Shown here in pieces: positions 1 to 61,046 of a stretch of DNA of 64,000 nt. Both the position numbers and the translations under genes were made by a program. The DNA lies in contig JAUXUK010000091.1 in the NCBI GenBank assembly GCA_030680805.1, forward strand, positions 1 to 64,000. Reading direction: 5' to 3'. The notes under the pieces are model-generated. The model was not told the origin of the DNA. It made no database searches and saw only the letters and a list, made by a program, of their open reading frames with translations. Position 1 is the stretch's first letter. Each line of letters starts with the position of its first letter. This DNA is from Sulfuritalea sp. Its GTDB lineage: Bacteria > Pseudomonadota > Gammaproteobacteria > Burkholderiales > Rhodocyclaceae.

Positions 1-2124
1 CGCTCGGAAGCCGACTGGCTGATCGGCATCAACGGCACGCGCGCCATGACGGCCTTCAATTCGATGGAAGGCGGCTTCTACAAGACACCCGTCGGGCGCG
101 TGCAGACGCCGACGCTGGCGATCATGGTCGAACGCGAAAGCCGCATTCGCGCCTTCGTCTCCCGCGACTACTGGGAAGTCGAAGGCGAATTCCAGTGCGT
201 CGCCGGCACCTATCGCGGTCGCTGGTTCGACGAGAAATTCAAAAAAGCTGACGATGAACACGCCCGCGCCGAGCGCGTCTGGGACAAGGCCAAGGCCGAC
301 GCCCTGCGCAAGAAATGCCTGGGTCAGCACGGCACGGTGGAAGAGGAAAGCAAGCCCAAGACCGAAGCCTGCCCGATGCTCTACGACCTTACCTCGCTGC
401 AGCGCGAGGCCAACGGCCGCTTCGGCTTCAGTGCCAAGAACACGCTGGGCATCGCCCAGGCGCTCTACGAAAAGCACAAGGCACTGACCTACCCGCGGAC
501 CGACAGCCGCCACCTGCCCGAGGACTACATCGGCACGGTCAAGGAAACCCTTGCGTCGATGGCCGGCACCGCCTACGCCACCTTCGCCGGCGCCATCATC
601 AAGAATGGCTGGGTGCATCCGAACAAGCGCATTTTCAACAATGCCAAGGTATCGGACCACTTCGCCATCATCCCCACCGGTGCCGCGCCGAAGAACCTTT
701 CCGAGCCGGAACAGAAGATCTACGACCTCGTCACCAAGCGCTTCCTCGGCATCTTCTACCCCGCCGCCGAGTACAACATCACCACTCGCATCACCCGCAT
801 CGAGAAGGAAGCCTTCAAGACCGAAGGCAAGGTGCTGGTAACGCCGGGCTGGCTGGCCGTGTATGGCAAGGAGGCCGTCAGCGAGGACGAAGAGAATCCC
901 AACCTGCCGCCGCTGGAAAAAAACGAGCGCATCTGGGCCAAGGACGTCGAGGTCAAGGCCAAGGCGACCCAGCCGCCGCCGCGCTTCTCGGAAGCCACGC
1001 TGCTGACCGCCATGGAAGGCGCCGGCAAGCTGATCGAGGACGAAGAACTGCGCGAAGCCATGTCCGAACGCGGACTGGGCACCCCGGCGACGCGCGCCGC
1101 CACCATCGAGGGCCTGCTGGCCGAGGAATACCTGCATCGCAACGGCCGCGAACTGCAGCCGACGGCCAAGGCCTTCTCACTCTTGTTTGCGCTGGAGCAA
1201 CTCAAGGTCGACGAAATCCGCTCGCCCGAACTCACCGGCGAATGGGAATACAAGCTCAGAGAAATGGAACATGGCCGTCTTGGCCGCGACGAGTTCATGA
1301 ACCATGTCGTGGACAAGACGCGGGAAATGGTCGAGCGGATCAAGACCGGTGAATTTGCCGATCCCGATTTCGGCACGCTGAACACCCCCTGCCCGCGCTG
1401 CGGCGCCAAGATCCACGAAGGCTACAAGCACTTCACCTGCGAAAAGTGCGACTACAAGCTGTGGAAAGTGGTCGCCAGCCGCCAGTGGGAAACCGCGGAA
1501 ATCGACGAGTTGCTGACCAAGCGCCAGATCGGTCCGCTACAGGGCTTTCGCAGCAAAATGGGACGCCCCTTCGCAGCCATGATCAAGCTCAAGGACGACC
1601 ACATGCCGGAGTTCGACTTCGGCCAGTCGGACGCCGATGCCGATGCGGAAGAAGTGGATTTCTCGACTCAGGAAACGCTCGGTGCCTGCCCGAAATGCGG
1701 CGCCCGCGTTTTCGAGCACGGCATGGCCTATGTCTGCGAAAAAGCCGTGGGCGCGGCCAAAACCTGCGATTTCCGCTCCGGCAAGATAATCCTGCAACAG
1801 GAAGTCGCGCGCGGCGACATGCAGAAGCTGCTGGCTACCGGCAAGACCGACCTGCTCAAGGGCTTCATCTCGAACAAGACGCGGCGCAAGTTTTCCGCCT
1901 ATCTGGTGCGTGATCCGAAGACCGGCAAGGTCGGCTTCGAGTTCGAGCCCAGGGCGCCGAAGGCGGGGGCCAAAGCCGCGCCAAAAGTCGGCGCTGGCGA
2001 TACGGCGGCCAAGCCCGCTGTGAAGAAGGCGGCAATAAAGAAGCCCGCCGCAAAAATACCAACGGCCAAGAAAGCGGCCGCAAAGCCCGCAGCGAAGAAG
2101 CCGGCGGCCAAGAAGGTCGGATGA
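1..2124 (+). CDS. topB: DNA topoisomerase III (type IA), 5'-truncated
   Basis: Type IA topoisomerase that relaxes and decatenates DNA through a 5'-phosphotyrosine link. The reading frame is open from base 1, so the gene begins upstream of the window and the Toprim part is missing. Visible motifs are [11 protein letters not shown] near position 96 and the active-site block LTYPRTDSR, with the catalytic Tyr codon at 490-492. Two C-terminal Cys4-type zinc ribbons follow (CPRCG...CEKC near 1390-1450 and CPKCG...C near 1690-1770). The last 50 or so residues are a Lys/Ala/Pro-rich basic tail, common in betaproteobacterial TopB and likely to bind DNA. The tail contains an in-frame copy of a dispersed repeat (VGAGDTA, 1983-2007). 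TopB rather than TopA is chosen from the active-site motifs. The stop overlaps the next start (ATGA). Confidence 0.93.
1983..2007 (+). repeat. Dispersed VGAGDTA repeat, copy in topB
   Basis: Copy of the repeat with core GTCGGCGCTGGCGACACGG preceded by a run of A; here one base differs (GAT for GAC). It is in frame and encodes K-VGAGDTA in the basic C-terminal tail of TopB. The same DNA word recurs in unrelated genes and gaps in this window. Confidence 0.8.
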
Positions 2125-2711
2125 CGAACGCGGCGCAGCTCACCCGCGCCGTTCTCGACTTCTGGTTCCTGTCGCCGGACCACCCCGGGCACGGCGCCTA
2201 CCGCCCCGAGTGGTTCCGCAAGGATGAGGCGTTCGACGCCATTATCCGAGAGCGATTCGGTGCGGATGTCGAAGCGGCATTGAACCATGCTCCCGGAACC
2301 GGTTCGGACGAAACGCTGCTGGCGCGCATCCTGCTGCTTGACCAGTTCACCCGCAACATTTTCCGCGATACGCCGCGCGCCTTTGCCGGCGACGCGCAGG
2401 CCCTGTCGGTCGCCACGACGCTGGTCGCGACAGGCTGCGACAAGAACCTGTCGCCCTTCCAGCGCTGGTTTGCCTACCTGCCCTTCGAACACAGCGAGTC
2501 GCTGCTGGAACAGGAGCGCGCAGTCGCGCTCTTCGCCGGATTGCGCCGCGAGATGCAGAATCAGGCTTTCGATAGCGCTTACGACTACGCACTGCGTCAT
2601 CGCGAAGTGGTTGCCCGCTTCGGACGCTTCCCCCATCGCAATGCCATTCTTGGCCGTGAATCAACGGCGGAAGAAACCGGATTCCTCGGGCAACCCGGCT
2701 CGTCGTTCTGA
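2121..2711 (+). CDS. DUF924 family protein
   Basis: A 196-residue protein of the DUF924 family, whose members are small all-helical TPR-like cytosolic proteins of unknown biochemical role. Family-like segments are the N-terminal [13 protein letters not shown], the central [18 protein letters not shown], the block [11 protein letters not shown] and the C-terminal [18 protein letters not shown]. Length is normal for the family. The start overlaps the topB stop (ATGA), so the two are probably translated together. No catalytic motif is visible and I assign no function. Confidence 0.85.
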
Positions 2712-2795
2712 CGTCGCGCGCCGGCACGGCGTGCCCTGAATTTGGCAAGCTTTCCGCAAATGCGGCAGGGGCCATTAAAATACGTTTTGGACCGA

Positions 2796-2816
2796 ATCGC
2801 CGAATCAATCGGCGAT
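2796..2816 (+). other. Hairpin in the icd leader
   Basis: Inverted repeat ATCGCCGA / TCGGCGAT with a 5-base loop, 45 bases before the icd start. It lies in the likely 5' untranslated region, downstream of an AT-rich stretch (2774-2782) that may hold the -10 element. No T run follows, so it is not an obvious terminator. Any regulatory role is unproven. Confidence 0.4.
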
Positions 2817-2860
2817 GCGTTGGATAAACCAGTCTACAGACCAATAACGAGGGGACAGCA

Positions 2861-5098
<2,238 letters not shown>

Positions 5099-6492: not shown

Positions 6493-6698
6493 GTTGATTA
6501 CCTCTGAAGCCGACCCCCGCAATGTTGCAGGCCAATCTGGGCGGAAACTTCCATGGGGTGTAACCGTCGCGGGGACTGAGACAAGCTCTGTGTCGCCCTT
6601 CAGGCACGACCGGCAGACTGGGGCGCGGTCGTTGAGGAGGTGAAGCGGGGCGGACTGTACCACAGCGCGCCGGCAATCCCCCGAATTTCTTTCGCCGT

Positions 6699-6727
6699 TG
6701 CCTGCCCGCGAAGCGGAATTCCAGGCA
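6699..6727. repeat. REP-like hairpin, copy 1
   Basis: A 29-bp element with outer stem TGCCTG / CAGGCA and inner stem CCGC-GAA-GCGG, between the ubiT stop and rhlE. Two more copies (22755-22783 and 37862-37890) have the same 29-bp layout with paired changes in the outer stem. A partial VGAGDTA-repeat core (6739-6753) lies 11 bases away and runs into the ubiT stop codon. The rest of the 6493-6750 gap is the rhlE leader, with nothing else recognised. Confidence 0.75.
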
Positions 6728-6750
6728 TGCAAAGCGAGCCAGCGCCGACT

Positions 6751-7224
6751 TTACTGCTTGAGGAATGTCGGCCGCAGCCCCTGCCAGGACAAACGCGGCC
6801 ATTCCAGCGCATCGAGCATGTTCTTGACCCGCAGGCCGAGCTCGGTGTCGCCCTCGATCGACAGGTTGCGATTGAAGAACAGCGTATCCGGGTCCTCCTG
6901 CCGGCTGACCATCTGCAGAAAAGCCGACAGGCGCGCCGTGAAGTGCAGGTCGGGCTCTCCGACGGAAACAAAGACCGGCCGGAACGCACCGCCGCTGTAG
7001 GTGAAGTTCACCACCATGCCGGTATCGAGCACCGTCACGCGGAAACAGCGGCCTTCAAGTTCCTGCAAGGTTTCGTCCGGCAGCACGCCCAGTTTGCGCG
7101 CGGCATTCAGAGCCAGCGCCAGGTTCACCGAGTGGGGCCATTGCGGCAGCCGCGCGCCCAGCCGCGCCATCAGCGGCGGCAGGGTAAAGGCGGGAATCGT
7201 CGGCAAGCTCAAACTGTTTTTCAT
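6751..7224 (-). CDS. ubiT: UbiT, SCP2-domain accessory factor of O2-independent ubiquinone synthesis
   Basis: A 157-residue SCP2-type lipid-binding protein, thought to hold ubiquinone intermediates for the anaerobic hydroxylases UbiU and UbiV. Its central part (VVNFTYSGGAFRPVF, LHFTARLSAFLQMVSRQEDP, DTLFFNRNLSIEGDTELGL) is the SCP2 fold with the family's NRxLxIEGDTELG motif. It is called UbiT (YhbT in E. coli) because it lies 11 bases downstream of ubiV and follows ubiU on the same strand, the conserved UbiUVT grouping. The ATG at 7224 starts MKNSLSLPTIPAF. The stop codon abuts a partial dispersed-repeat core. Confidence 0.88.
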   Translation of the reverse strand: MKNSLSLPTIPAFTLPPLMARLGARLPQWPHSVNLALALNAARKLGVLPDETLQELEGRCFRVTVLDTGMVVNFTYSGGAFRPVFVSVGEPDLHFTARLSAFLQMVSRQEDPDTLFFNRNLSIEGDTELGLRVKNMLDALEWPRLSWQGLRPTFLKQ

Positions 7225-8117: not shown

Positions 8118-8155
8118 TGAGCTCACGCCTCCGGCGCCCAAAAGGAAAAAGCTTG

Positions 8156-8262
8156 ACCGCAGAGGCGCGGAGACGCGGAGGAAGCGCAGAGAAAAACAAA
8201 GGCGGCATGGAAAAACGACTTTCTCTGCTTCGCCTTTCTCTGCGCCTCTGCGCCTCTGCGGT
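8156..8262. repeat. GCAGAGGCG-type palindromic repeat, copy 1
   Basis: A roughly 107-bp element whose ends are exact inverted complements (ACCGCAGAGGCG ... CGCCTCTGCGGT). The arms are built from CGCAGAG / GCGGAG heptad-like words. It sits in the ubiU-ubiV intergenic region, 38 bases before the ubiV start. A second copy is at 35619-35724 in front of metK. No coding function is supported. Confidence 0.85.
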
Positions 8263-9991: not shown

Positions 9992-10058
9992 CGTCACACC
10001 GGCGAAAGCCGGTGTCCAGCATTCCTGTTCTGGATTCCGGCGTTCGCCGGAATGACGG
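9992..10058. repeat. dRS3-like paired inverted repeat, copy A
   Basis: Two 20-bp palindromes, ACACCGGCGAAAGCCGGTGT at 9996-10015 and ATTCCGGCGTTCGCCGGAAT at 10034-10053, bounded by CGTCA and TGACG. Related pairs are at 41907-41981 and 62195-62271. They resemble the neisserial dRS3 / NEMIS class of small repeats. This copy lies between the Fe-S gene and the DUF3501 gene. Confidence 0.85.
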
Positions 10059-10081: not shown

Positions 10082-11416
10082 CTAGTCCAGCCCGTAGGCG
10101 ATGCGCAACAGCGTGAGTGGATGTTGCTTTTCCTTGCGGCCGGCGGCACCCGCCTCGTTCATGCCCTGCAGGATGTGGCGGCCGGCGATGGCGCAGTCGG
10201 AACTGACGTAGTCGGGTTCGTCCTTGGCCATGGCCTTGAAAACCGGCTTGCCGATTTTCATCGACAGCGCGTAGTACTCCTCCTTGACGCCCCAGGTGCC
10301 GTCATGGCCGGCGCAACGCTCGACGGTGTTCACCGTGGCGCCGGTCATCTTGAGCATTTCTTCGGTCTTCTTGCCGACGTTCTGCACGCGCGAGTGGCAG
10401 GGGATGTGGTACGAGACGCGGCCCAAGGCCACCTTGAAGTCGGTCTTGAGCAGGCCGTCCTTGTTGCGCAGGACGAAGTATTCGAAGGGGTCGAACATTG
10501 CCTCGGACACTTCCTTGCAGCGCGCATCTTCGGGGAACAGCAGCGGAATCTCGCTCTTGAACATCAGGGTGCACGACGGCACCGGCGTCACGATGGCATA
10601 GCCGGCCTGCGCCAGATCGTGCATCAGCGGAATGTTGCGTTCCTTGTACTTCTCCACCGTTTGCAGGTCGCCCAGTTCCAGCTTGGGCATGCCGCAGCAG
10701 GTTTCACCCTGCACGATGCGGTAGGGAACCTCGTTGTGGTCGAGCAGCTTCAACAGGTCGTGGCCAAGGCCGGGTTCGTTGTAATTGACGTAGCAGGTCG
10801 AGAACACGGCGACCTTGCCCGGCGACTTGGCGCCGTCACGCACTGGATGATTGTGGCTGGCGGTCGCATTCGCGCGGAAGTTGGCGCTGTCGAAATCCGG
10901 CAGTTCGCGTTCTTTCTGCACCCCGAGCACTTTTTGCAGCACAGCGCGTGCGGGGCCGTTCTTGGTGGCGGCATTGACGAAATGCACCACCACCGGTATC
11001 GACGACAGGGTGCCGACGAGTTCGGTCGAGGTCAGCAGTTTGTCGCGGAATTTCATCTTGCCGGTCTTGTACTGGATCGCCTTGGCGCGCAGCATGGTGT
11101 GCGGGAAATCCAGGTTCCACTCGTGCGGCGGCACGTAGGGGCATTTGGTCATGTAACAGACGTCGCACAAATAGCACTGGTCGACGACTTTCCAGAATTT
11201 TTCCTTGGGCACGCCGGCGGTCTCAAGATCGCCGGCCTCATCGATGTAATCGAAGAGCAGCGGGAAGGCATTGCACAGCGACACGCAGCGGCGGCAGCCG
11301 TGGCAGATGTCGAAAATGCGTTCGAGTTCCTTCTCGCAGGAGGCTTCGTTGTAGAAGTCGGGATTCTTCCAGTCGATCGGATGACGGGTCGGTGCCTGGA
11401 GATTGCCTTCGCGCAT
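10082..11416 (-). CDS. Fe-S oxidoreductase with CCG domains (GlpC/HdrB-like)
   Basis: A 444-residue soluble protein with two N-terminal 4Fe-4S motifs ([11 protein letters not shown] and [13 protein letters not shown]). The C-terminal half carries cysteine-rich CCG-type motifs ([22 protein letters not shown]) as in GlpC and heterodisulfide reductase B. No flavin domain is present, so it is an electron-transfer partner rather than a full glycolate or glycerol-3-phosphate dehydrogenase. I chose the ATG at 11416 (MREGNLQAP). A TTG further upstream would run into the repeat at 11439. It lies between rubrerythrin and the DUF3501 gene, a recurrent grouping. A function in peroxide reduction is inferred from context. 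Confidence 0.85.
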
Positions 11417-11438: not shown

Positions 11439-11463
11439 AAAAAGTCGGCGCTGGCGACACGGC
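11439..11463 (+). repeat. Dispersed VGAGDTA repeat, intergenic copy
   Basis: Full match to the repeat core, preceded by a run of A, in the 81-base gap between rubrerythrin and the Fe-S gene. It lies 23 bases upstream of the Fe-S gene start and is not translated from that ATG. It shows that the element also exists outside coding sequence. Confidence 0.8.
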
Positions 11464-11497: not shown

Positions 11498-11917
11498 TCA
11501 GCCGTTCAGGCTGTCCAGCGTGCGCTGGAACTTGTTGGCGTGGGAGCGCTCGGCCTTGCCCAGCGTCTCGAACCAGTCGGCGATTTCGTCGAAGCCTTCG
11601 TCGCGCGCGGTCTTGGCCATGCCCGGGTACATGTCGGTGTACTCGTGCGTCTCGCCGGCAATCGAAGCCTTCAGGTTGTCGGCGGTCGCGCCGATCGGCA
11701 GCCCGGTGGCGGGATCGCCGCAGGCTTCGAGGTACTCGAGGTGGCCGTGGGCGTGGCCGGTTTCACCTTCGGCGGTGGAGCGGAACACGGCGGAAACGTC
11801 GTTGAAGCCTTCGATGTCGGCCTTGTTTGCGAAATACAGATAGCGGCGGTTGGCCTGCGATTCGCCGGCAAACGCGGCTTTCAGGTTGCCTTCAGTCTTG
11901 GATCCCTTGAGTTGCAT
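11498..11917 (-). CDS. Rubrerythrin-family diiron protein
   Basis: A 139-residue ferritin-like four-helix protein of the rubrerythrin family, which reduces peroxides with a diiron centre. Segments [37 protein letters not shown] and [24 protein letters not shown] carry the Glu and ExxH ligands. The C-terminal rubredoxin domain of classical rubrerythrin is absent; the chain ends soon after [18 protein letters not shown] chose the ATG at 11917 because GAGGAG is placed 8 bases upstream. It is the first gene of a leftward group with the Fe-S and DUF3501 genes, and oxyR lies immediately upstream on the same strand. Confidence 0.92.
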
Positions 11918-15073: not shown

Positions 15074-15102
15074 TTTATAGAACGATCGTTCGTTTGTGTC
15101 AA
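15074..15102 (-). promoter_or_regulatory. TetR-gene promoter with operator in the spacer
   Basis: Minus-strand -35 TTGACA (15097-15102) and -10 TATAAA (15074-15079) are separated by exactly 17 bases. The spacer holds the perfect 12-bp palindrome GAACGATCGTTC (15080-15091). A bound repressor would cover the promoter. The predicted transcript start falls on the ATG of the TetR gene. The promoter of the divergent kinase gene may be affected too. Confidence 0.8.
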
Positions 15103-15155
15103 CCCCTGCGTCAAAGAACTCCCGTAGCACCGTAGGCCGAAGGACGGGGGTGATA

Positions 15156-16676
15156 ATGGCCCCCATGCCCGACGCCCTGCCACCCCTGATCGCCGCGCTG
15201 CTCGATCCGAGCCGCTACCCTCATCCGGCCGCGCGGGTCGACCTGATCGAAACCCATGCGTCGTGGCTGCTGCTGGCCGGCGAGTTCGCCTACAAGATCA
15301 AGAAAGCCATCACGCTCCCCTTCCTCGATTACGGCACGCTGGCGCGCCGCGAGGCGTTCTGCCGCGCCGAACTGGTGCTCAACCACCGCCTCGCCCCCGA
15401 GCTGTATCTCGACGTGGTCCCCATCGGGGGCACCCCCGGGCAACCCCAGCCGGGCGCAATGCCGGCGATCGAATGGGCAGTGCGCATGCGCCGCTTTGAC
15501 GAAAGCGGCCGGCTCGACCATGTCGCCGCACGCGGGGACCTGCTGCCCGCCCATCTTTCCCAACTCGCCGCTACGCTCGCGGTTTTTTGGCAGGCGGCGG
15601 CCGTGGCCGCCCCCGACACGCGCTTTGGTGCGCCGGATCAAGTGCTGGCGGCGGCTCGGGAAAATTTTGTCGAGCTGCGCCAGCTCCTGCCGCCTGCCGA
15701 TCAGCCACGGGTCGAGGAACTCGCGCGCTGGACCGAGGATGAATTCGTCCGCCGCGCCGCCGACTTCGCCGCGCGCAAGGCCGGCGGTTTCGTGCGCGAA
15801 GGCCACGGCGACCTGCATCTGGGAAACCTGGTGCTGATCGACGGCCAGGTAACGCCCTTCGACTGCATCGAGTTCAACGAGGATTTCCGCTGGAACGATC
15901 CCGCCAGCGAGATCGCCTTCGTCTGGATCGACCTGCTTGACCACCGCCAGCCGGGCCTTGCCGCATGGTTTCTGAACGCCTGGCTGGAGCGCAGCGGCGA
16001 TTTTCAGGCACTGGCCGTGCTGCGTTTTTATGCCGTGTACCGCGCCGTGGTGCGCGCCAAGATCGCGGGTCTGCGTGCGAAGCAGGAAGCCTCCGGGGCC
16101 GCTCGCGCCGAACTCGACGCGGCACGCGGATACCTGCAACTGGCTGCGCAAATCGCCGTACCGCCAGCGCCGACTCTGGTCATCACCTGCGGCCTGTCCG
16201 GTTCGGGCAAGACCACCGCCAGTTCGGCGCGCCTGCTGGGTCCGCCGCCGCAGGGCGCCGGCACCCTCTTGCGCCTGCGCTCCGACGTCGAGCGCAAGCG
16301 CCTGTTCGGACTGGCGCCGCGGCAAAACAGCGGATCACCACTCGACGGTGGCATCTACACGGCAGAGGCGACGACGCGGACCTATGCGCGGCTGCACGCC
16401 CTGGCCAGCGATCTGCTGGCCGCCGGCTGGCCGGTGATCGTCGATGCGGCGTTCTTGCTGCGTGAGGAACGCACGACGTTTCGCGCCCTCGCGGCCGCGC
16501 ACGGCGCCGGCTTTGGCATCCTCGCCACCGACGCACCGGCCGAGGAATTGCGCCGCCGCATCAAGGCGCGCAGCGGCGACGCCTCCGAGGCAACGCTCGA
16601 CGTGCTGGAAAAACAGTTGGCGTGGTTCGAGCCGCTGGATGACGCCGAACATGCCTGCGCCATCACAGCACGTTGA
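15156..16676 (+). CDS. Fused APH-like kinase and P-loop ATPase
   Basis: A 506-residue two-domain protein. The N-terminal aminoglycoside-phosphotransferase-like domain has the catalytic/Mg motifs HGDLHLGNLVLIDG and FDCIEFNEDFRWNDPASE. The C-terminal P-loop domain has Walker A GLSGSGKTTAS and resembles gluconokinase or zeta-toxin-like kinases. Such fusions are widespread and mostly uncharacterised; antibiotic resistance should not be assumed. I chose ATG 15156 because GGGGG lies 6 bases upstream; ATG 15165 is a close alternative. An upstream start at 15096 would overlap the TetR promoter. The linker between domains (VPPAPT) falls on a weak dispersed-repeat match. Confidence 0.82.
   Translation: MAPMPDALPPLIAALLDPSRYPHPAARVDLIETHASWLLLAGEFAYKIKKAITLPFLDYGTLARREAFCRAELVLNHRLAPELYLDVVPIGGTPGQPQPGAMPAIEWAVRMRRFDESGRLDHVAARGDLLPAHLSQLAATLAVFWQAAAVAAPDTRFGAPDQVLAAARENFVELRQLLPPADQPRVEELARWTEDEFVRRAADFAARKAGGFVREGHGDLHLGNLVLIDGQVTPFDCIEFNEDFRWNDPASEIAFVWIDLLDHRQPGLAAWFLNAWLERSGDFQALAVLRFYAVYRAVVRAKIAGLRAKQEASGAARAELDAARGYLQLAAQIAVPPAPTLVITCGLSGSGKTTASSARLLGPPPQGAGTLLRLRSDVERKRLFGLAPRQNSGSPLDGGIYTAEATTRTYARLHALASDLLAAGWPVIVDAAFLLREERTTFRALAAAHGAGFGILATDAPAEELRRRIKARSGDASEATLDVLEKQLAWFEPLDDAEHACAITAR
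16154..16175 (-). repeat. Possible VGAGDTA-repeat copy in the kinase linker
   Basis: Twenty of 22 bases match the reverse complement of the repeat core. It is read in a different frame here (I-A-V-P-P-A-P-T), between the two domains of the kinase/ATPase. With two mismatches in GC-rich coding DNA, chance is possible. Confidence 0.4.
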
Positions 16677-18076: not shown

Positions 18077-19255
18077 TTACTGGGTCAGATAATCCGTAAC
18101 CGCAACCCAGCGGCCATTCTGGATCTGTCCGACCTTGGACTTTTCGTTGCCCAGATGCTGCGTCGGCGTGAACTTGTATTCGGGGCTGCCGAACATGTCG
18201 CGCGAGAAGGTGGTGCTCTCGAGGACCTTGATGAAGTTGTCGGTGGTCAGGTTCGGCCCCGTCTTCTTCGCGGTCTGCACGAACATGTCCATCGCCACGT
18301 AGCCGTAAGCGGAGAACAGGCCCGGATCCTCGTTGAACTTCGTCTTGTAGGAAGCAAACCAGTCGCGCACGTTCTTCGACGAGTCGTCGGCATAGGGCAC
18401 GGCCACCTGGTGGAACGCATAGAGTCCGTCCATCGCCTTGCCGCCCAGCTTGTGGATCAGGTCGGTATAGGCCGCCGAAGAACCCACGAAGTTCGGGTTC
18501 CAGCCCATCTTGCGCGCCGTGCCGATGGTGCCGATGGTCTCGCGGATGATGGTGCCGAGCACGACCGTGTCGCAATCCGCCGCCTTCATCTTCGACACCT
18601 GCGCCGAGAAATCGGTGGCGCCGCGCTTGAAGGAGGTCTTCTCGGCGAACGCCATGTTGATGTCCTTGAGGCCGTCTTCCGCGCCCTTCAGCACTTCGGT
18701 GCCGAAGTCGTCATCCTGATAGATGACGCAGAATTTCTTCGCGCCGCGCTCCTTGACCATCCAGGGAATTCCCTTGCGCATCTGGGTGTAATAGGGAGCG
18801 GCGAAGGAAAACTTGAGCTTGTGCAGCGGCTCGTACATTTCACGCGCGGCCGTCAGCGGGAACAGGTTCATCACGCCCTTGTCGAACAGGGTCGGGAAGG
18901 TGGCCAGATTGACCGCCGTGCCGATGGTGCCGACCATGGCGAAGAGCTTGTCCTGCTGCACCATTTTCTGGGCGGCAAGCAGGCCTTTCTTCGGATCGTA
19001 GCCGGAATCCTCGGCGATGAACTTGAGCTTGCGGCCATTGATGCCGCCCTGGTCGTTGACCTCATCGACCCGCATCTGCATGCCGTAACGCAGCGCCTTG
19101 CCGAAACCGGCCAGCGGCCCGGACAGGTCCTGGATGGTGCCGATCACGATTTCATTCTTGCTGACGCCCATCTGCCCGGCGGCCATCGCCGTGGCGCCAG
19201 CGCCGACTCCTGCGACCGCGATCAGTGCCGCGGCCAGTTTGGTGTAACCCTTCAT
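18077..19255 (-). CDS. livK: Branched-chain amino acid-type ABC transporter, substrate-binding protein
   Basis: A 392-residue periplasmic binding protein of the Leu/Ile/Val receptor family. The signal peptide covers residues 1 to about 26, ending AMAAG. The mature start QMGVSKNEIVIGTIQDLSGPLAGFGKA and the block GGINGRKLKFIAEDSGYDPKKGL are typical of the family. It is the last gene of a leftward unit with livHMGF and an acyl-CoA ligase. The linked CoA ligase and beta-oxidation genes suggest a carboxylic acid substrate rather than amino acids; this is inference. The signal peptide contains VGAGATA, which overlaps a dispersed-repeat match. Confidence 0.88.
   Translation of the reverse strand: MKGYTKLAAALIAVAGVGAGATAMAAGQMGVSKNEIVIGTIQDLSGPLAGFGKALRYGMQMRVDEVNDQGGINGRKLKFIAEDSGYDPKKGLLAAQKMVQQDKLFAMVGTIGTAVNLATFPTLFDKGVMNLFPLTAAREMYEPLHKLKFSFAAPYYTQMRKGIPWMVKERGAKKFCVIYQDDDFGTEVLKGAEDGLKDINMAFAEKTSFKRGATDFSAQVSKMKAADCDTVVLGTIIRETIGTIGTARKMGWNPNFVGSSAAYTDLIHKLGGKAMDGLYAFHQVAVPYADDSSKNVRDWFASYKTKFNEDPGLFSAYGYVAMDMFVQTAKKTGPNLTTDNFIKVLESTTFSRDMFGSPEYKFTPTQHLGNEKSKVGQIQNGRWVAVTDYLTQ
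19187..19208 (-). repeat. VGAGDTA-repeat copy in the livK signal peptide
   Basis: Twenty-one of 22 bases match the reverse-complement repeat core. It is in frame and encodes VGAGATA at about residues 17-23 of the LivK signal peptide. The one mismatch changes Asp to Ala, which keeps the segment uncharged. Confidence 0.6.
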
Positions 19256-22739: not shown

Positions 22740-22754
22740 CAAAAAGTCGGCGCT
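22740..22754 (+). repeat. Partial VGAGDTA-repeat core before livG
   Basis: Run of A followed by GTCGGCGCT, the 5' half of the repeat core, directly joined to REP-like copy 2. It lies 10 bases before the livG start, next to the GGAG ribosome-binding site. The rest of the 22731-23007 gap contains C/G-rich inverted repeats and no gene. Confidence 0.6.
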
Positions 22755-35601: not shown

Positions 35602-35618
35602 CTGATGGAAAAAGCTTT

Positions 35619-35724
35619 ACCGCGGAGGCGCAGAGGCGCAGAGAAAGGCGTCGCAGAGAAAACCTTTCATTGGCGAAACATTGCTTTTCTCTGCGTTACC
35701 TCTGCGCCTCCGCGCCTCTGCGGT
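35619..35724. repeat. GCAGAGGCG-type palindromic repeat, copy 2
   Basis: A roughly 106-bp inverted repeat ending ACCGCGGAGGCGCAGAGG and its near complement ending GCCTCTGCGGT. It fills nearly all of the gap between the alcohol dehydrogenase and metK. Its right end reads GGTGAGG, which lies 8 bases before the metK ATG and looks like the metK ribosome-binding site. Confidence 0.85.
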
Positions 35725-35735
35725 GAGGTTTTGTC

Positions 35736-39928: not shown

Positions 39929-41869
39929 TTATTTGTTCGCCATGTAGTTCATCGGGCCGCCGGTGTAGGGCGCAAAGCCGGTGCCGAAGATCACGCCGGC
40001 GTCGGCCAGTTCGGCATCCGCGACAATGCCATCGCGCACCAGCCGTTGCGTGGCGTCGAGCAAGGGCTTGATCAGACGGTGCGCGAGGCCCTCCGGCGCC
40101 GTGTCGCCAGCGCCGACTTTTTCCGCCTTGCCATCGACCCAGGTGTAGAAACCCTTGCCGGATTTCTTGCCGAGGTTCTTGCCTTCCACCAGCTCGACCA
40201 GCTTCTTTGGCGGATTCGCTTCGCCCACCAGTTGCCGGCCGGCCGCCACGGCGACGTCGAGGCCCACCGTATCGGCCAGTTCGATCGGTCCCATCGGCAT
40301 GCCGAAGGCGACCATGGCCGCATCGATGGTTTCCGGCGCGATGCCTTCATCGACGCAGCGCATGGCTTCGTTCATGTAGGGTGCCAGCACGGCATTGACC
40401 AGGAACCCCGGCGCGTCCTTCACCGGCAGCGGCAGCTTGTCTATCCTGCGCACGAAGGCCGCGGCCTTCTGCGCTGCTTCCGGCGCGGTGCCGGCGCCGG
40501 CCACTACTTCGACCAGCGGCATCATCGCCACCGGATTGAAGAAGTGGATGCCGACCAGGCGCGACGGATCCTTGAACTTCGCCGCGATGTCGGACAGCTT
40601 GAGCGACGAGGTGTTCGAGGCCAGCAAGGCCTCCGGTTTGGCCCGCGCTTCGATGTCGGCGAACAGCGCCTGCTTCGCCTCGAGGTTCTCGAAAATCGCC
40701 TCGATGATGACATCGGCCTGACGCACGCCGTCGCCTTTCGGATCGGCGATCAGGCGATCAAGTGCAAAGCGCGCCAGCTTCTTGTCGCGCAGCTTCCTCT
40801 CGAAGAACTTCGCGGCGCGGCCGACCGCCGGCGCGATGCGTTCCACCGACTGGTCCTGCAGCGTCACCGTCATGCCGCGCAGCACGCACCAGGCCGCGAT
40901 GTCGCCGCCCATGACGCCGGCGCCGACCACGTGTACGTGGCGCGGCGCAAAACTGGAAGCATCCTTGCCGAAACCCTTGAGCCGGTCCTGCAAGAAGAAC
41001 ACGCGGATCAGGTTGCGCGTGGTCGGGTGCGTCACCAGCGCGTTGAGTGAGGTCGGCTCGCCGGCAGGCACGGCCAGCGTGTTGCCGCCATGGTTCTGCC
41101 ACTGGTCGATGATGGCGAAAGGCGCAGGGTAGTGTTCCTGACGTGCGCGCTTCGCTACCTGCTTGCGGGCGCCGCTGGCGACAAAACTTTTCAGCGGCCC
41201 GTTCATTAGCTTCTGCATGAAAGGCAATCGGGTCTGCCGCATCGGGCTGCCCGAAAGCACCAACATGCGCGCGGCGTTATCCATGATGCGCGGCGGCACG
41301 CATTCGTCGGCGAGGCCCATTTTCTTCGCGCGTTTGGCATCGATATTCTTGCCGGACAGCATCATGTCCAGCGCCGCCGCCGGTCCGACGATTTGCGGCA
41401 GGCGCAACATGCCGCCCCAGCCGGGGACAATGCCGAGCATGACTTCGGGCAGAGCGAACTTGGTGCCCGGCTCGTCGACCGCGATGCGATAGCGGCAGGC
41501 CAGCGCCAACTCGGTGCCGCCGCCCATGCAGTGGCCGCGCACCAGCGCCAGCGTCGGGTAGCTGACTCTGGCTAAGCGGTTGTACAAGTCCCAGCCGCGC
41601 TTGACTAGGGCGAGCGCCTTCTCCGGGGTGTCGGACGCGACGAATTCCTCGATGTTGGCGCCGGCGATGAAGCCGGCCTCCTTCGCCGACTTGAAGATCA
41701 GGCCCTTGGGCGGATTCCTCTCGCATTCGTCGAGGATCAGGCCGAGTTCCGTCATCACTTCGGCGCCCAGCGTGTTGGTCGAGGAATTCGCGGTATCGAG
41801 GATGGCCCAGGCCACGCCCTCGTTTTGGTCGCTTGTCTCGCGTTCGAGTTTCCAGTGTTGTAGTTGCAT
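39929..41869 (-). CDS. fadB: Fatty acid oxidation complex alpha subunit (second copy)
   Basis: A 646-residue bifunctional enoyl-CoA hydratase / 3-hydroxyacyl-CoA dehydrogenase. The hydratase part has RGHCMGGGTELALACRYRI and ALPEVMLGIVPGWGG. The NAD site is VVGAGVMGGDIAAW, and the dehydrogenase signature is HFFNPVAMMPLVEVVAG. Shorter than the other copy (723 residues) and clearly a different paralogue. The region between the dehydrogenase and its C-terminal helical domain carries an in-frame VGAGDTA repeat (40097-40121). It is the last gene of psrA-fadE-thiolase-fadB. Confidence 0.92.
   Translation of the reverse strand: MQLQHWKLERETSDQNEGVAWAILDTANSSTNTLGAEVMTELGLILDECERNPPKGLIFKSAKEAGFIAGANIEEFVASDTPEKALALVKRGWDLYNRLARVSYPTLALVRGHCMGGGTELALACRYRIAVDEPGTKFALPEVMLGIVPGWGGMLRLPQIVGPAAALDMMLSGKNIDAKRAKKMGLADECVPPRIMDNAARMLVLSGSPMRQTRLPFMQKLMNGPLKSFVASGARKQVAKRARQEHYPAPFAIIDQWQNHGGNTLAVPAGEPTSLNALVTHPTTRNLIRVFFLQDRLKGFGKDASSFAPRHVHVVGAGVMGGDIAAWCVLRGMTVTLQDQSVERIAPAVGRAAKFFERKLRDKKLARFALDRLIADPKGDGVRQADVIIEAIFENLEAKQALFADIEARAKPEALLASNTSSLKLSDIAAKFKDPSRLVGIHFFNPVAMMPLVEVVAGAGTAPEAAQKAAAFVRRIDKLPLPVKDAPGFLVNAVLAPYMNEAMRCVDEGIAPETIDAAMVAFGMPMGPIELADTVGLDVAVAAGRQLVGEANPPKKLVELVEGKNLGKKSGKGFYTWVDGKAEKVGAGDTAPEGLAHRLIKPLLDATQRLVRDGIVADAELADAGVIFGTGFAPYTGGPMNYMANK
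40097..40121 (-). repeat. VGAGDTA repeat in fadB
   Basis: Exact copy of the repeat core on the minus strand, in frame ([12 protein letters not shown]). It lies in a surface linker after the conserved KGFYTWVDGK segment. Confidence 0.85.
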
Positions 41870-41906: not shown

Positions 41907-41981
41907 CGTCATTCCGGCGAAAGCCGGAATCCAGAAACCGCGCCCGAAACTCCCTGGATTCCGGCTTTCGCCGGAATGACG
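41907..41981. repeat. dRS3-like paired inverted repeat, copy B
   Basis: ATTCCGGCGAAAGCCGGAAT (41911-41930) and ATTCCGGCTTTCGCCGGAAT (41958-41977), bounded by CGTC and TGACG. It occupies most of the 135-base gap between the thiolase and fadB within the operon. Confidence 0.88.
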
Positions 41982-42004
41982 GACGAAAATGGTCTGCCCG
42001 GTCA

Positions 42005-43296: not shown

Positions 43297-45651
43297 CTAT
43301 GCCACCTTGCGCAGGGTTGGCGGCACGCCGGCCTGTTCGACGGCGAAGTCCTGCGGAAAATCATCGACGGCGATGGCCTTGTCGCGCAGCTGGTCGCGCC
43401 GCTGCAGCACCGCATGTTCCTCGGCCGTGATGACGCCGGCTTCTCGCGCGTGGGCGGCCATCGTCGCCGTGTCGCCAGCGCCGACTTTTCCTTCCTTGCG
43501 CGCGGCGCGGATGCGGGCTTCGATCGGCTCGGCGGCCAGCGTGGCCTCCAAAGCCAGTTCGATGACGCCGACCGCATCGTTCATTGCCGTCACCGGATCG
43601 TGCGGAATGTACATGCCGGCGGTCAGCCGGTCGCGCGTGGCCGAGGGTTCGATCAGCAGTTGTGCCACCTCGTGGCCGAGCTGGTCGGACGGCACCTCGT
43701 AGGGCCGGCCGAGCGGGAAGACGTACCAGTGCAACAGTGCGGCGATGAAGCGGTTCGGGTAATTCGAGATGACGCCCTCGAAGGCATTCTGCATCTTGAA
43801 CATGGCATCCCAGATCGCCCAGTGCAGCAGCGGCGCATCCTCCGCTTGACGGCCCTCGGCCTCGTAGCGCTTGAGCGTGGCGGAACACAGATACATCAGG
43901 GAAAGAATGTCGCCCAGGCGCGCCGAGAGTTTTTCCTTGCGCTTCAGGTCGCCGCCCATGACGAACATCGACACATCGGAGATGAAGGCGAAGGCCGCCG
44001 AAAAGCGCGTCAGCTGCTGGTAATAGCGACGGGTTTCAGGGGCGACGCCAGCCGGTGCCGGTCCGAAGTTCGATCCCGTCAGACCCATGCTCCAGGCGCG
44101 GAAGCCGCGACTCCAGATGAACCACAAATGCGCGGCGAAGGCCTTGTCGAAATCGCGCAAGCCCTTGGCGCCATCCGTCTCGCGGGCTGCTTCCATTTCC
44201 TTCAGTACATACGGATGGCAGCGGATCGCGCCCTGACCGAAGATGATCAGGCTGCGGGTCAGGATGTTCGCGCCCTCGACCGTGATGGCGACCGGCACCT
44301 GCTGGTAGGCGCGGCCCATGAAGTTGTTGGGGCCAAGGCAGATGCCCTTGCCGCCGAGGATGTCCATCGCGTCATTCACCACCTGGCGGGTGCGCTCGGT
44401 GACGTGGTACTTGACGATGGCCGAGACCACCGAGGGCTTTTCGCCGAGGTCGATGGCGCCGGCGGTCATGGTGCGCGCCGCATCCATCATGTAGGTGTTG
44501 CCGCCCATCCGCGCCAGCGGTTCCTCGATGCCCTCGAACCTGCCGATGGCGGTCTTGAACTGGGCTCGAACGCGGGCATAGCCGCCGGTAGCGCGCACCG
44601 CCAACTTGGACATGCCGGTATTGCTGGATGGCAGCGAGATCGAACGCCCGGCCGCCAGGCATTCCATGAGCATGCGCCAACCCTGGCCGGCCATGGCGGG
44701 GCCGCCGATGATCCAGTCGAGCGGCATGAAGACGTCCTTGCCCGAGTTCGGTCCGTTCTGGAACACGGCATTGAGCGGGAAATGGCGGCGGCCGATGTTG
44801 ACCCCGGGATGATCGGTCGGCACCAGCGCGCAGGTGATGCCCAAATCCGCATTTTTGTCACCTCCGTCGCCGAGCAGATGCTCGGGATCCTGCAGGCGGA
44901 AGGCCAGCCCGAGGATGGTGCAGATCGGGCCCAAGGTTATGTAGCGCTTGTCCCAGGTAACGCGCATGCCGACCACTTCCCTGCCTTGCCACATGCCCTT
45001 GCAGACGATGCCAATGTCGGGGATCGAGGCCGCGTCGGAACCGGCGTGGGGGTTGGTCAAGGCAAAGGCCGGAATCTCCAGCCCCTTCGCCAACCGCGGC
45101 AGGTAGTAATTCTTCTGTTCCTCGGTGCCGTAATGCAGCAGCAGTTCGGCCGGGCCGAGCGAATTCGGCACCATCACCGACACCGCCGCCGCCGAACAGC
45201 GCGTCGACAATTTCTGCACCACGGTGGAGTGCGCGTAGGCAGAGAATTCGAGGCCGCCGTAGCGCTTGGGGATGATCATGCCGAGGAAGCCCTTCTCCTT
45301 GACGTAGACCCATGCGTCGGGTGCAAGATCGTGGTGGATCTGCGTGGTGTCCCAGTCGCTGACCATGGCGCAGAGCGCTTCGCATTCGTTGTCGAGGAAG
45401 GCTTGTTCGACGGCCGTCAGTTTCGGCTGCGGATAATCGAGCAGCGTCTGCCAGTTCGGCCGGCCCGAGAACAACTCGCCTTCCCACCAGACGGTGCCGG
45501 CTTCCAGCGCTTCCTTTTCGGTTTGCGACATGGCCGGCAGCAGCTTCTTGTAGATGGCGAAGATCGGCCCCGTCAGCAATGCGCGGCGCAAAGGCGGCAG
45601 CAGAAGTACGGCGGCAATGGAGGCAACAAGTAGTATCAGGAACCAGGTCAT
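43297..45651 (-). CDS. fadE: FadE-type acyl-CoA dehydrogenase
   Basis: A 784-residue acyl-CoA dehydrogenase of the large FadE class. An N-terminal hydrophobic segment (FLILLVASIAAVLLLPPL) probably anchors it to the membrane. The dehydrogenase core includes YGGLEFSAYAHSTVVQKLSTR, PAFALTNPHAGSDAASIPDIG and DILGGKGICLGPNNFMGRAYQ. The FadE-specific C-terminal domain follows and includes an in-frame VGAGDTA repeat (43465-43489). It lies 18 bases after psrA on the same strand. Confidence 0.94.
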   Translation of the reverse strand: MTWFLILLVASIAAVLLLPPLRRALLTGPIFAIYKKLLPAMSQTEKEALEAGTVWWEGELFSGRPNWQTLLDYPQPKLTAVEQAFLDNECEALCAMVSDWDTTQIHHDLAPDAWVYVKEKGFLGMIIPKRYGGLEFSAYAHSTVVQKLSTRCSAAAVSVMVPNSLGPAELLLHYGTEEQKNYYLPRLAKGLEIPAFALTNPHAGSDAASIPDIGIVCKGMWQGREVVGMRVTWDKRYITLGPICTILGLAFRLQDPEHLLGDGGDKNADLGITCALVPTDHPGVNIGRRHFPLNAVFQNGPNSGKDVFMPLDWIIGGPAMAGQGWRMLMECLAAGRSISLPSSNTGMSKLAVRATGGYARVRAQFKTAIGRFEGIEEPLARMGGNTYMMDAARTMTAGAIDLGEKPSVVSAIVKYHVTERTRQVVNDAMDILGGKGICLGPNNFMGRAYQQVPVAITVEGANILTRSLIIFGQGAIRCHPYVLKEMEAARETDGAKGLRDFDKAFAAHLWFIWSRGFRAWSMGLTGSNFGPAPAGVAPETRRYYQQLTRFSAAFAFISDVSMFVMGGDLKRKEKLSARLGDILSLMYLCSATLKRYEAEGRQAEDAPLLHWAIWDAMFKMQNAFEGVISNYPNRFIAALLHWYVFPLGRPYEVPSDQLGHEVAQLLIEPSATRDRLTAGMYIPHDPVTAMNDAVGVIELALEATLAAEPIEARIRAARKEGKVGAGDTATMAAHAREAGVITAEEHAVLQRRDQLRDKAIAVDDFPQDFAVEQAGVPPTLRKVA
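43465..43489 (-). repeat. VGAGDTA repeat in fadE
   Basis: Exact copy of the repeat core on the minus strand, in frame ([14 protein letters not shown]) about 55 residues from the FadE C-terminus. Confidence 0.85.
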
Positions 45652-51457: not shown

Positions 51458-53305
51458 ATGATGCGCCGCGCCCCACCTGCCATGGCCCTGCCGGGCCCGA
51501 TCCCCGATACCCGCCACGACTGGCAGACCATCAAGACCCTGCTACCCTACCTGTGGGCATGGAAGGGTCGCGTTGTCTTCGCGCTGACCTGCTTGTTGCT
51601 GGCGAAAGTGACGAGTGTCAGCGTCCCGCTGGTATTCAAGGACATCATCGATACCTTCACCCAGCCCGGCGCCGGCAAGCTGGAGCAAGCCGCGCTGCTG
51701 GTGCCGCTGGGCCTGCTGGCCGCCTACGGCGCGCTGCGCTTTGCGACGGTGCTATTCACCGAGCTGCGCGAAATCTTCTTCGCCCGCGTGACGCAACGCG
51801 CGGTGCGCACCATCACGCTGCAGGTCTTCGAGCACCTGCACGCACTCTCGCTGCGCTTCCACCTCGACCGCCAGACCGGGGGCCTGACGCGCGACATCGA
51901 GCGCGGCACGCGCGCGATCGGCTCGCTGATCAGCTACACGCTGTATTCGATCCTGCCCACGCTGGTGGAGATCGCGCTGGTGCTGGGCATCCTCGGCTTC
52001 CGCTACGACAAGGATTTCATGCTGATCACGCTGGTCACGCTGGTGCTCTATGTGAGCTTCACCATCGTCGTCACCAACTGGCGCACGGTGCTGCGACGCG
52101 AGGTCAACGAACTTGATTCGGCGGCCAACATCCGCGCCGTGGACAGCCTGATCAATTTCGAGACGGTCAAGTACTTCAACAACGAGCGCTGGGAACACGA
52201 CCGCTACGACGAGCAGATGCAGAAATGGGAAGTGGCGCAGATCAGGAGCCAGATCTCGCTGTCCTGGCTCAATCTCGGCCAGTCGCTGATCATCGCCGCC
52301 GCAGTGACGCTGATGATGTGGCGAGCCGCGGTCGGCGTGGCGGACGGCAGCATGACGGTGGGCGACATCGTGCTGGTGAATGCCTTCCTGATCCAACTCT
52401 ACATGCCGCTCAACCACCTCGGTGTGCTCTACCGCGAGATCCGCCAGTCGCTGACCGACATCGAGCGCATGTTTTCGCTGCTCGGCAAAAACCGCGAGAT
52501 CGAGGATGCGCCCGATGCGCGACCGCTGTTCCCTGCGGGTCCCGATGGAATAACCGGTGGCCCCTGCGAGGTCGAATTCGCGCAGGTCGGCTTCGCCTAC
52601 GAAGCCAACCGGCAGATCCTGTTCGACGTTAATTTCAAAGTCGGCGCCGGCAAGACGGTGGCCGTGGTGGGCCACAGCGGCTCGGGCAAATCGACCTTGG
52701 CGCGACTGCTGTTCCGCTTCTACGACACCACGACCGGCTCGGTGAAGATCAACGGCTCGGACCTGCGCGCCCTGCAGCAGACTTCGGTGCGTGCCGCGAT
52801 CGGCATCGTGCCGCAGGACACCGTGCTGTTCAACGACACGATCTTCTACAACATCCAGTACGGCCGGCCCAAAGCGCCGCGCGAGGAAGTGATCGCCGCA
52901 GCCAAGGCCGCGCACATCCATGACTTCATCGAGAAACTCCCGGACGGCTACGACACGCGCGTCGGCGAGCGCGGCCTGAAACTGTCCGGCGGCGAGAAGC
53001 AGCGCGTCGCCATCGCCCGGGCTCTGCTGAAGAATCCTCCGATCCTGATTTTCGACGAGGCCACCTCGGCGCTCGACTCCAAGACCGAAAAGGCCATCCA
53101 GGCGGAACTGGAACAAGTTGCGCTTGGCCGCACAACGCTTATCATTGCCCACCGGCTGTCGACGGTAATGAATGCCGACGAGATTCTGGTGCTCGATGCC
53201 GGGCACATCGTCGAGCGCGGCGCCCATCGCGCGCTGCTCGAACGCAACGGCCTGTATGCCCAGATGTGGGCCTTGCAGCAGCAGGAGCACTTGACTGAAG
53301 TCTGA
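51458..53305 (+). CDS. Atm1/HMT1-type ABC exporter (half-transporter)
   Basis: A 615-residue fused membrane-ATPase protein. The N-terminal domain has six predicted membrane segments (residues 30-320). The ATPase has Walker A GHSGSGKST, signature LSGGEKQRVAIARALLKNP and Walker B ILIFDEATSALD. The segment NFETVKYFNNERWEHDRYDE is characteristic of the Atm1/AtmA family, which exports glutathione-linked sulfur or metal species. ATG 51458 is adopted; ATG 51482 is an alternative. It is 22 bases upstream of gltI, perhaps by chance of packing. Confidence 0.9.
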   Translation: MMRRAPPAMALPGPIPDTRHDWQTIKTLLPYLWAWKGRVVFALTCLLLAKVTSVSVPLVFKDIIDTFTQPGAGKLEQAALLVPLGLLAAYGALRFATVLFTELREIFFARVTQRAVRTITLQVFEHLHALSLRFHLDRQTGGLTRDIERGTRAIGSLISYTLYSILPTLVEIALVLGILGFRYDKDFMLITLVTLVLYVSFTIVVTNWRTVLRREVNELDSAANIRAVDSLINFETVKYFNNERWEHDRYDEQMQKWEVAQIRSQISLSWLNLGQSLIIAAAVTLMMWRAAVGVADGSMTVGDIVLVNAFLIQLYMPLNHLGVLYREIRQSLTDIERMFSLLGKNREIEDAPDARPLFPAGPDGITGGPCEVEFAQVGFAYEANRQILFDVNFKVGAGKTVAVVGHSGSGKSTLARLLFRFYDTTTGSVKINGSDLRALQQTSVRAAIGIVPQDTVLFNDTIFYNIQYGRPKAPREEVIAAAKAAHIHDFIEKLPDGYDTRVGERGLKLSGGEKQRVAIARALLKNPPILIFDEATSALDSKTEKAIQAELEQVALGRTTLIIAHRLSTVMNADEILVLDAGHIVERGAHRALLERNGLYAQMWALQQQEHLTEV

Positions 53306-58447: not shown

Positions 58448-59208
58448 GAGATGCCGATTCCGACATTAAGCGCGGCTGAAAGCGCGGCGTGATCGGAGAT
58501 GGTCGACCACGGTCGCCCGGCATGAACCTGCGTCGTGACCACCTGACAGCCACGCTGGTAAATGCGATCGAGGCGAAACAGCGGCAGCGCGGCGGGATAG
58601 CTGCGCGAAGGGCGCTGGCCCGCGCCGGCGAAAACCTCAACCAGCCCGAGGCGCTCCGCCAGCAGATCATGGGCATGATTGCGCCAGTCGTTGAAGTCGC
58701 CCGCGATCAAGAGCGGCGCGCCGGCCGGCACCAGTTCTTCGATGCGACTGGCGAGCGCATCCATCTGCCACCGCCGCGAGCGCGCGAACAGGGACAGATG
58801 CACGCAGACGCAATGCAGCGGCTGCGCCAGCGATGGCAGTTCGACCGCGCAGTGCAGCAGGCCGCGCTTCTCGAAGCGCAGGTGCGTCACGTCCTGATTG
58901 TGTTCGTGCAGGATGGGAAAGCGCGAAAGAATGGCGTTGCCATGGTGACCGTGGTCATACACCATGTTGCAGCCGTAAGAGTGGTTTGCCCAAACGTCCT
59001 CGGCGAGGAATTCGTGTTGCGGCAGCGTCGGCCAGTCCGGATGCCTCTCGACGTGCCCCAGATGCAGTCCCTGCACTTCCTGCAGGAAAACAATATCGGC
59101 CGACAGCTCGCGCAGGCGGTCGCGCAGCTCATGCACCATCATGCGGCGATTGAACTGTGAAAATCCCTTGTGGATGTTCCAGGTGGCGATGGAGAGCGGA
59201 AACGTCAT
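58444..59208 (-). CDS. Endonuclease/exonuclease/phosphatase-family protein (YbhP-like)
   Basis: A 254-residue EEP-fold hydrolase. Motifs are IATWNIHKGF at the start, FLQEVQG (Glu for metal binding), HLSLFARSRRWQ, AGDFNDWRNH and the C-terminal SDHAALSA. It probably acts on a phosphodiester in lipid or nucleic acid metabolism. It is translationally coupled to clsB, as YbhP is in E. coli, which suggests a link to phospholipid metabolism. Confidence 0.87.
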   Translation of the reverse strand: MTFPLSIATWNIHKGFSQFNRRMMVHELRDRLRELSADIVFLQEVQGLHLGHVERHPDWPTLPQHEFLAEDVWANHSYGCNMVYDHGHHGNAILSRFPILHEHNQDVTHLRFEKRGLLHCAVELPSLAQPLHCVCVHLSLFARSRRWQMDALASRIEELVPAGAPLLIAGDFNDWRNHAHDLLAERLGLVEVFAGAGQRPSRSYPAALPLFRLDRIYQRGCQVVTTQVHAGRPWSTISDHAALSAALNVGIGIS

Positions 59209-59257
59209 GCTGGCGAAGTGGCGATGGAGAGTATCCCGGTGAGCCTGGCGACTGCCC

Positions 59258-60970: not shown

Positions 60971-61021
60971 GGGAATGTCCGTCTGATGCTGCTGATGGAA
61001 CTGCGAGGCGGAGGCCCCAAG

Positions 61022-61046
61022 AAAAGTCGGCGCTCACGACACGGCG
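61022..61046 (+). repeat. VGAGDTA repeat overlapping the nadA stop
   Basis: Copy with two changes from the core (CTCAC for CTGGC). In the nadA frame these changes create the TGA stop, so the repeat supplies the last residues (AVS) and the stop codon of nadA. Confidence 0.75.

Follow-up and report, generated by a model that had tools for sequence, protein, structure and literature searches.

A dispersed 26-bp word in Sulfuritalea-like Rhodocyclaceae as a candidate DNA uptake sequence

The 26-bp word in the window and in two genomes

The stretch of DNA analysed here, called the window throughout, comprises 64,000 nucleotides of a Sulfuritalea sp. of the Rhodocyclaceae (assembly GCA_030680805.1, contig JAUXUK010000091.1, positions 1 to 64,000) and carries a short dispersed repeat in and between unrelated genes, which a preliminary description had reported as entering proteins in frame as VGAGDTA. 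The whole repeat is the 26-bp block RAAAGTCGGCGCTGGCGAnACGGCGA; conservation falls off on either side and the flanks are unconserved. With the first G of the core counted as 0, position 14 is nearly free and positions 8 and 13 are mildly variable. By eye, no long palindrome is present in the 26-bp consensus, the only arms being GTCG..CGAC. The sites in the window are listed below with their scores in bits and the support for the genes concerned.

1983..2008, + strand: KVGAGDTA in sense frame 1, close to the topB 3' end; 41.7 bits; topoisomerase gene 46-2124 (Pfam)
6692..6752, - strand: site interrupted by a 38-bp hairpin between its left half AAAGTCGGCGCTGGC and its right half AACGGCGA; same layout in locus L175
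11440..11465, + strand: site with a perfect core, between the called genes 10085-11416 (-) and 11501-11917 (-)
16153..16178, - strand: antisense frame 2, within the AAA_33-domain gene 15096-16676 (+); 34.6 bits; Pfam
19186..19211, - strand: VGAGATA, towards the N-terminus of a periplasmic binding protein of livK type; 31.5 bits; PF13458
22742..22767, + strand: degraded site upstream of livG, followed by the hairpin word GCGAAGCGG; outside called genes; 23.1 bits
34252..34277, - strand: EVGAGDTA, in an NlpC/P60 protein; 37.9 bits; PF00877
40096..40121, - strand: KVGAGDTA, near the fadB C-terminus; 40.8 bits; Pfam
43464..43489, - strand: KVGAGDTA, near the fadE C-terminus; 43.6 bits; orthologue alignment
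52636..52661, + strand: weak site (KVGAGKTV) in an ABC transporter, which may be partly ordinary coding sequence; 24.6 bits; PF00005
56969..56994, - strand: antisense frame 1, in an unnamed open reading frame on the + strand without a Pfam family; 37.8 bits
61022..61047, + strand: overlaps nadA (61034-62287, minus) at its 3' end; 36.8 bits; PF02445

The in-frame copies that the preliminary description placed in topB, the NlpC/P60 gene, fadB, fadE and livK are real and lie in Pfam-supported genes, its non-coding copy at 11439 is an exact copy located between called genes (11440), and the one it saw at the nadA stop (61022) does overlap the 3' end of that gene. Two further copies stood in part: site material is present at the position given as the ubiT stop (6739) and is apparently split by the 38-bp hairpin, and the copy before livG (22740) was recovered at 22742 outside called genes in a degraded form. 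The sites at 16153 and 56969 were absent from that description, and both are antisense within a called gene. Two of the 11 window matches described next, one at 40909 at the NAD-binding domain of fadB and one at 52640 in the ABC transporter, can be ordinary protein sequence.

The word GTCGGCGCTGGCGACACGG gave 11 matches in the window at up to three mismatches, compared with a mean of 0.16 in shuffled sequence, and 0 of 100 shuffles reached 11. The whole genome of the window (3.14 Mb, 86% complete) contained 402 matches to a 23-base version at up to three mismatches and 0 to the word read backwards. The claim of a dispersed repeat was hereby extended to the genome, with a count far above the control and not at the level of composition. 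A position matrix with a threshold of at least 14 bits found 87 sites in a 464-kb sample of this genome, made up of 20 stretches chosen independently of sites together with the window, and 78 sites in 400 kb sampled from G002, another genome of the genus (3.80 Mb in a single contig); the reversed text gave 0 in both. This density of about 1 site per 5 kb extrapolates to about 590 and about 740 sites per genome in the window's genome and G002, respectively. The 165 matrix sites pooled from the two genomes included 126 of at least 30 bits and 11 below 20 bits, and some of the weak-scoring sites look like ordinary coding sequence. The most over-represented 12-mer in the 464-kb sample was AAAGTCGGCGCT, observed 47 times against 0.27 expected. 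Both orientations were used without strong strand bias (197 forward and 205 reverse in the window's genome, 28/34 for exact copies in G002). The A-stretch varied by species, position -2 being A at 0.80 and G at 0.07 in the window's genome against A at 0.38 and G at 0.41 in G002, a difference that resembles the beginnings of a dialect.

Distribution, origin and constraint of the sites

In a search of 61 genomes with the 19-base core at up to two mismatches, 31 belonging to the genus and 30 lying outside it (6 from the same family and 24 from the order), all 31 genus genomes were found to carry the core, with 23 matches in G017, 96 in G022, 156 in G025 and 227-571 in the other 28, and the 30 genomes outside the genus gave 0-3 matches each. 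Four further genera, also of this family and each sampled over 141-188 kb, gave 0, 1, 1 and 2 matrix sites, and 400 kb of a fifth, G034, gave 0. Among the genomes searched, the repeat is confined to one genus of the Rhodocyclaceae. This genus is referred to as Sulfuritalea-like because of the depositor names on the records of named genomes carrying the exact 23-mer (at least 80 loci), which were Sulfuritalea, Sulfurisoma, Rugosibacter, Rhodocyclales and a few others.

Protein alignments indicate that the sites arise by base substitution at the places that could be aligned. In FadE the block was present in each of the 17 genus rows spanning the position (two more rows lacked coverage there) and in 0 of 11 outgroup rows, of which eight were equal in length at the site, two were longer, one was shorter by a residue and none was shorter by 8-9 residues; the DNA of the block was degraded in G022 and G025. 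In ComM, 19 of the 21 genus rows spanning the position had it, against 0 of 6 outgroup rows, five of the latter being of equal length and one longer by one residue. Most outgroup FadE and ComM orthologues had different residues at the same aligned place, and the possibility raised earlier that distant orthologues share the residues of the block was not borne out by either protein. Orthologues of the 103 coding sites were sought in samples of five other genera, and 30 alignments representing 22 sites passed. The length difference at the site was 0 in 16 of them, three were shorter by 7 or 12 residues and one was longer by 8, and 0 of the 30 were shorter by 8 or 9. Sites of at least 30 bits made up 11 of the 22 and contributed 18 outgroup alignments, eight of them with a length difference of 0. 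A difference in length was met in 14 of 30 alignments at sites compared with 20% of 2045 control windows, and a shortening by at least 7 residues in 3 of 30 compared with 1.8% of controls; length thus varies more at sites than in control windows, and the sites seem to prefer variable linkers. This 30-alignment set superseded a smaller protein comparison (14 alignments, 6 gapped at the site). Cross-genome DNA comparisons numbered 465, with the word present in both in 368, intermediate in 18 and absent in 79, and 1 of the 79 showed a 26-nt gap in the relative; since many of these comparisons are gapped at low identity and FadE pairs recur among them, weight was placed on the protein alignments. 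An insertion element was rejected as the source of the sites, given that orthologues without the word mostly show other residues and no gap of the word's size. The likeness to Rickettsia palindromic elements suggested by the preliminary description was accordingly not supported, neither an insertion of this size nor a long palindrome being found.

Codon choice within the block points to sites that are held at the DNA level. Its first codon in 17 FadE genes was Lys AAA in 7, Lys AAG in 1 and Arg AGA in 9, and as all nine Arg codons were AGA, the residue changes while the A-stretch is mostly kept. In 18 ComM genes, where the block is read in another frame, 17 of 17 Thr codons were ACT. Codon identity given the same residue, calculated in both genes from pairs that are not independent, was 0.80 at the site and 0.70 elsewhere in FadE and 0.78 against 0.67 in ComM with G017 and G022 excluded (0.78 against 0.66 with both included).

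Reading frames were assigned by non-overlapping gene calls, checked against Pfam within the window. The 103 of 165 sites lying in genes were distributed over the six frames as 44/28/19/12/0/0 (chi-square 85, 5 df), although the gene caller relies on codon statistics and possibly disfavours the two empty frames, both of which are arginine-rich. The four peptides were sense KVGAGDTA (44), antisense AVSPAPTF (28), antisense RRVASADF (19) and sense KSALATRR (12). A cruder assignment by single-site scores, in which shadow frames counted as coding, had put 10 of 120 coding sites in the two arginine-rich frames; it was replaced because it took shadow frames as coding at 11440, 22742 and 61022 in the window. 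The remaining 62 sites were outside genes or at their edges (59 intergenic, 3 edge) compared with about 10% non-coding DNA. With four reading frames in use and sites outside genes, the earlier proposal of shared DNA in place of protein convergence was upheld. That copies nearly always keep the same frame was true of those first seen but not of the sampled genomes, where 44 of 103 do so and three other frames are used; that copies sit in harmless places agrees with their excess in variable places and outside genes.

Counts by replichore gave no significant bias, with 15/23 and 14/14 in 16 clear-skew stretches (Fisher p 0.46, or p 0.16 with further negative-skew stretches included). A replichore-biased motif of the Chi or FtsK-orienting polar sequence (KOPS) kind was rejected, as a strand bias among the G002 matches listed vanished in the complete exact listing (28/34) and in 20 spaced stretches. 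Pairs acting as terminators were likewise rejected, as the 345 sites include only 2 close pairs in inverted orientation.

Reduced lineages, mobile DNA and hairpin elements

G017, the genome with 23 copies, is 99% complete and nests inside the genus in a ComM tree with support 84/98, in a tree that includes the site's columns and has 4 of 24 inner branches fully supported. Given this nested position, the near-absence of the repeat is probably a loss. The ComM sites of G017 and G022 were decayed in place. In G022 the number of matches climbed as 7, 25, 47 and 80 at 0-3 mismatches, whereas it peaked at one mismatch in the samples of the window's genome (14, 25, 18, 14) and G002 (6, 27, 22, 16), and the rise with mismatches suggests erosion of the sites. 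A replacement dialect in G017 or in other genera was rejected, no comparable motif appearing in 12-mer counts of G017, G034, G031, G032, G033 and G035 (samples of 141-400 kb). Some of these samples show other repeats, and that of G034 (L231-L250), which belongs to another genus of the family, is very rich in a repeat of its own, CCTGTGGGAGCGGCGG.

One of the 20 G002 stretches, 20 kb of conjugative DNA with TraU, TraN and HipA genes and 55% GC compared with 60-66% in the other 19, was without a site, a single case that is not improbable by itself. From a viral-contig collection, 80 of 83 stretches with a match were examined, a few of which share a contig, and 40 of the 80 held more than one site, up to six. 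The density beyond the match that selected each stretch was 0.87 per 10 kb in the viral stretches compared with 1.58 in named host loci, and some of the site-bearing viral contigs were seen by eye to encode phage-like proteins. One member of the collection, L323, contains at 781-2300 an array of units of about 316 bp with attC-like GCCTAAC..GTTAGGC ends and, as judged by eye, one site per unit; this part looks like an integron cassette array.

Seven of the 78 G002 sites contain a small hairpin element, by eye at a constant place after AGT (L192 10644, L193 3410, L194 5114 and 17234, L200 12064, L205 2842 and L207 17216), and one left half is degraded. The hairpin ends are TTATGC (once TCATGC) and GCGGTATCC (once GCGGCATCC). 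Sites broken up by different hairpins occur in further genomes and, within the window, at 6692-6752. At two orthologous places, L183 13738 and fadB 40096, the window's genome has an uninterrupted site and a relative an interrupted one, and from such uninterrupted orthologous sites the word seems to serve as an insertion target for hairpins. Two further repeat types occur in the window. That at 8145-8262 and 35608-35735, CTCTGCGCCTCTGCGGT, ranks second among the over-represented 12-mer groups of the sampled part of this genome, and a hairpin repeat resembling repetitive extragenic palindromic (REP) sequences, TGGATTCCGGC..GCCGGAATGACG with relatives, is present in several copies at 10028-10058, 41907-41982 and 62195-62272.

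A candidate uptake sequence and its rivals

On the sequence data above, the repeat is probably a DNA uptake sequence of Sulfuritalea-like Rhodocyclaceae, a candidate for a third such system after the Pasteurellaceae uptake signal sequence (USS) and the Neisseriaceae DNA uptake sequence (DUS) and unrelated to both. The uptake step and the pilus receptor are parts of this reading that we infer. The type IV pilus of competent cells would carry a DNA receptor that binds the 26-bp word in free DNA, DNA bearing the word would more often enter the cell and recombine, and the resulting bias could slowly turn near-matches into the word wherever protein or regulation tolerates it, a molecular drive; lineages losing the bias would then lose the word through mutation. 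ComEC and a ComP_DUS-family pilin were each found in 30 of the 31 genus genomes.

The USS has an A-rich start and preferred reading frames; its sequence is unrelated to the word described here, and the shared A-rich start may mean nothing. Strong sequence preference in DNA uptake has been assigned to two families only, Pasteurellaceae and Neisseriaceae, and the USS has been described as originating by point mutation and not by insertion, accumulating by biased uptake, relatively evenly distributed and less frequent in recently acquired DNA and where coding sequence is constrained (PMC7811141). It accumulates in temperate phages of Pasteurellaceae (PMC6776037), and its receptor is only predicted (PMC12616744). 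The Rhodocyclaceae word is similar in its many copies, apparent origin by substitution, lower frequency in coding sequence, fairly even distribution and presence in phage-like contigs. DUS are over-represented 10-mers with a CTG core that show dialects, motif-free relatives in the same family and frequent inverted pairs (PMC3630211), and their distribution can mark conjugative elements (PMC7371117). Species variants, related genera without the word and ComP_DUS-family pilins are shared with the DUS system; a visible common sequence is not, nor did the Rhodocyclaceae genus have a ComEA over the cut-off. As suspected in the preliminary description, literature searches found no published account of the 26-bp repeat among the papers listed, judged from titles and abstract openings and with subscription literature thinly covered.

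A number of observations weigh against an uptake sequence. ComEA is the usual periplasmic DNA-binding protein of competence, and 0 of 31 genus genomes had a ComEA over the TIGR00426 cut-off; outside the genus, G034 alone among six genera of the family had one. The sub-threshold matches in the genus lie in frames of about 550-940 residues, which are probably Tex, and the cut-off of another ComEA model applied to 23 genus genomes was exceeded only in G017, by three matches in shorter frames. Either another periplasmic protein does the work of ComEA or the machinery differs. The competence genes searched are also common outside the genus, the ComP_DUS-family pilin being found in 25 of 30 genomes there. 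A receptor search by pilin family returned mixed paralogues that did not separate carriers of the repeat from non-carriers, so that no candidate was singled out, and ComEC does not separate them either. Loss of competence genes was rejected as the cause of the reduction in G017, none being found among the families searched; since this genome retains ComEC, ComM and a ComP_DUS-family pilin, the gene losses examined do not explain it. The 14 of 30 outgroup alignments that differ in length at the site, with three shorter by 7 or 12 residues, and the only weakly even spacing in G002 (coefficient of variation 0.79 against 0.90±0.08 for random placement) point the same way. Sense and antisense placement among coding sites (56 and 47, p 0.43) showed no significant orientation preference, and no clear bias to gene ends was found among coding sites, unlike the uptake sequences reported with both features (PMC2346458). 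The density of about 1 site per 5 kb is lower than the spacing of about 1 kb reported for the USS in H. influenzae (PMC7811141), and inverted pairs, which the DUS often forms (PMC3630211), are rare here (2). As a separate observation on a competence gene, the comM frame at L190:8779-9972 in the window's genome (C36) is 397 codons long, compared with about 580-600 in many relatives, by assembly error or in reality.

A binding site for an intracellular DNA-binding protein, such as a nucleoid organiser or a segregation or replication factor, kept by selection on chromosome function, would account for a long 26-bp word that is found genome-wide, constrained at synonymous positions and spaced fairly evenly in the window's genome (coefficient of variation 0.67 against 0.90±0.09 for random placement), and it would be at ease with the lack of a ComEA over the cut-off in the genus. 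We nevertheless regard it as unlikely: copies run to hundreds and many lie inside coding genes, no significant replichore bias exists, and the word is present in phage-like contigs and missing from one conjugative stretch, albeit a single case. An essential chromosome function is also hardly compatible with the near-loss in a genome as complete as G017. A separate possibility, considered rather unlikely, is that the word is a genome-wide DNA address, written by successive base changes into one genus and the phages of that genus, which a machinery other than ComEA-dependent transformation reads and at which small hairpin elements insert.

Rickettsia palindromic elements are larger inserted palindromes, dispersed and read in frame inside unrelated proteins, and REP sequences of the type associated with REP-associated tyrosine transposases (RAYT) are short dispersed hairpin repeats. 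The word resembles the former in being a dispersed repeat in frame within unrelated proteins and the latter in being short and dispersed, with hairpin elements of similar look inside some sites. A mobile or formerly mobile mini-element of either kind, inserted in frame and then kept, could thus draw on the dispersal across unrelated genes, on those hairpins and on the three outgroup alignments shorter by 7 or 12 residues, which are in variable linkers. It is largely refuted for the places examined and is considered very improbable, as 0 of 30 outgroup alignments are shorter by 8-9 residues and 16 are of equal length, rare codons are conserved among species, and the 26-bp word has neither an insertion of its size nor a long palindrome or hairpin; most copies, moreover, are coding (103/165), unlike REP sequences. 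That composition, codon use or the protein motif VGAGDTA gave rise to the repeat as a by-product hardly deserves consideration, even though GC content is high and a few weak matches resemble coding sequence (52636, and peptides shared with outgroups). At 14 bits the two samples gave 87 and 78 sites and the reversed controls 0, the repeat is missing from other genera of the family, one of them sampled with 64% GC, the peptides read in the four frames are unrelated, and 62 of 165 sites fall outside genes or at their edges.

If the uptake sequence proves true, a third and unrelated system would permit independent tests of how uptake specificity starts, is spread by molecular drive and is lost, in a genus whose 31 genomes span rich, reduced and nearly empty sets, and there would be a new receptor to find. 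The sites could then also be used as a tool, their presence marking long-resident DNA and phages and their absence recent arrivals.

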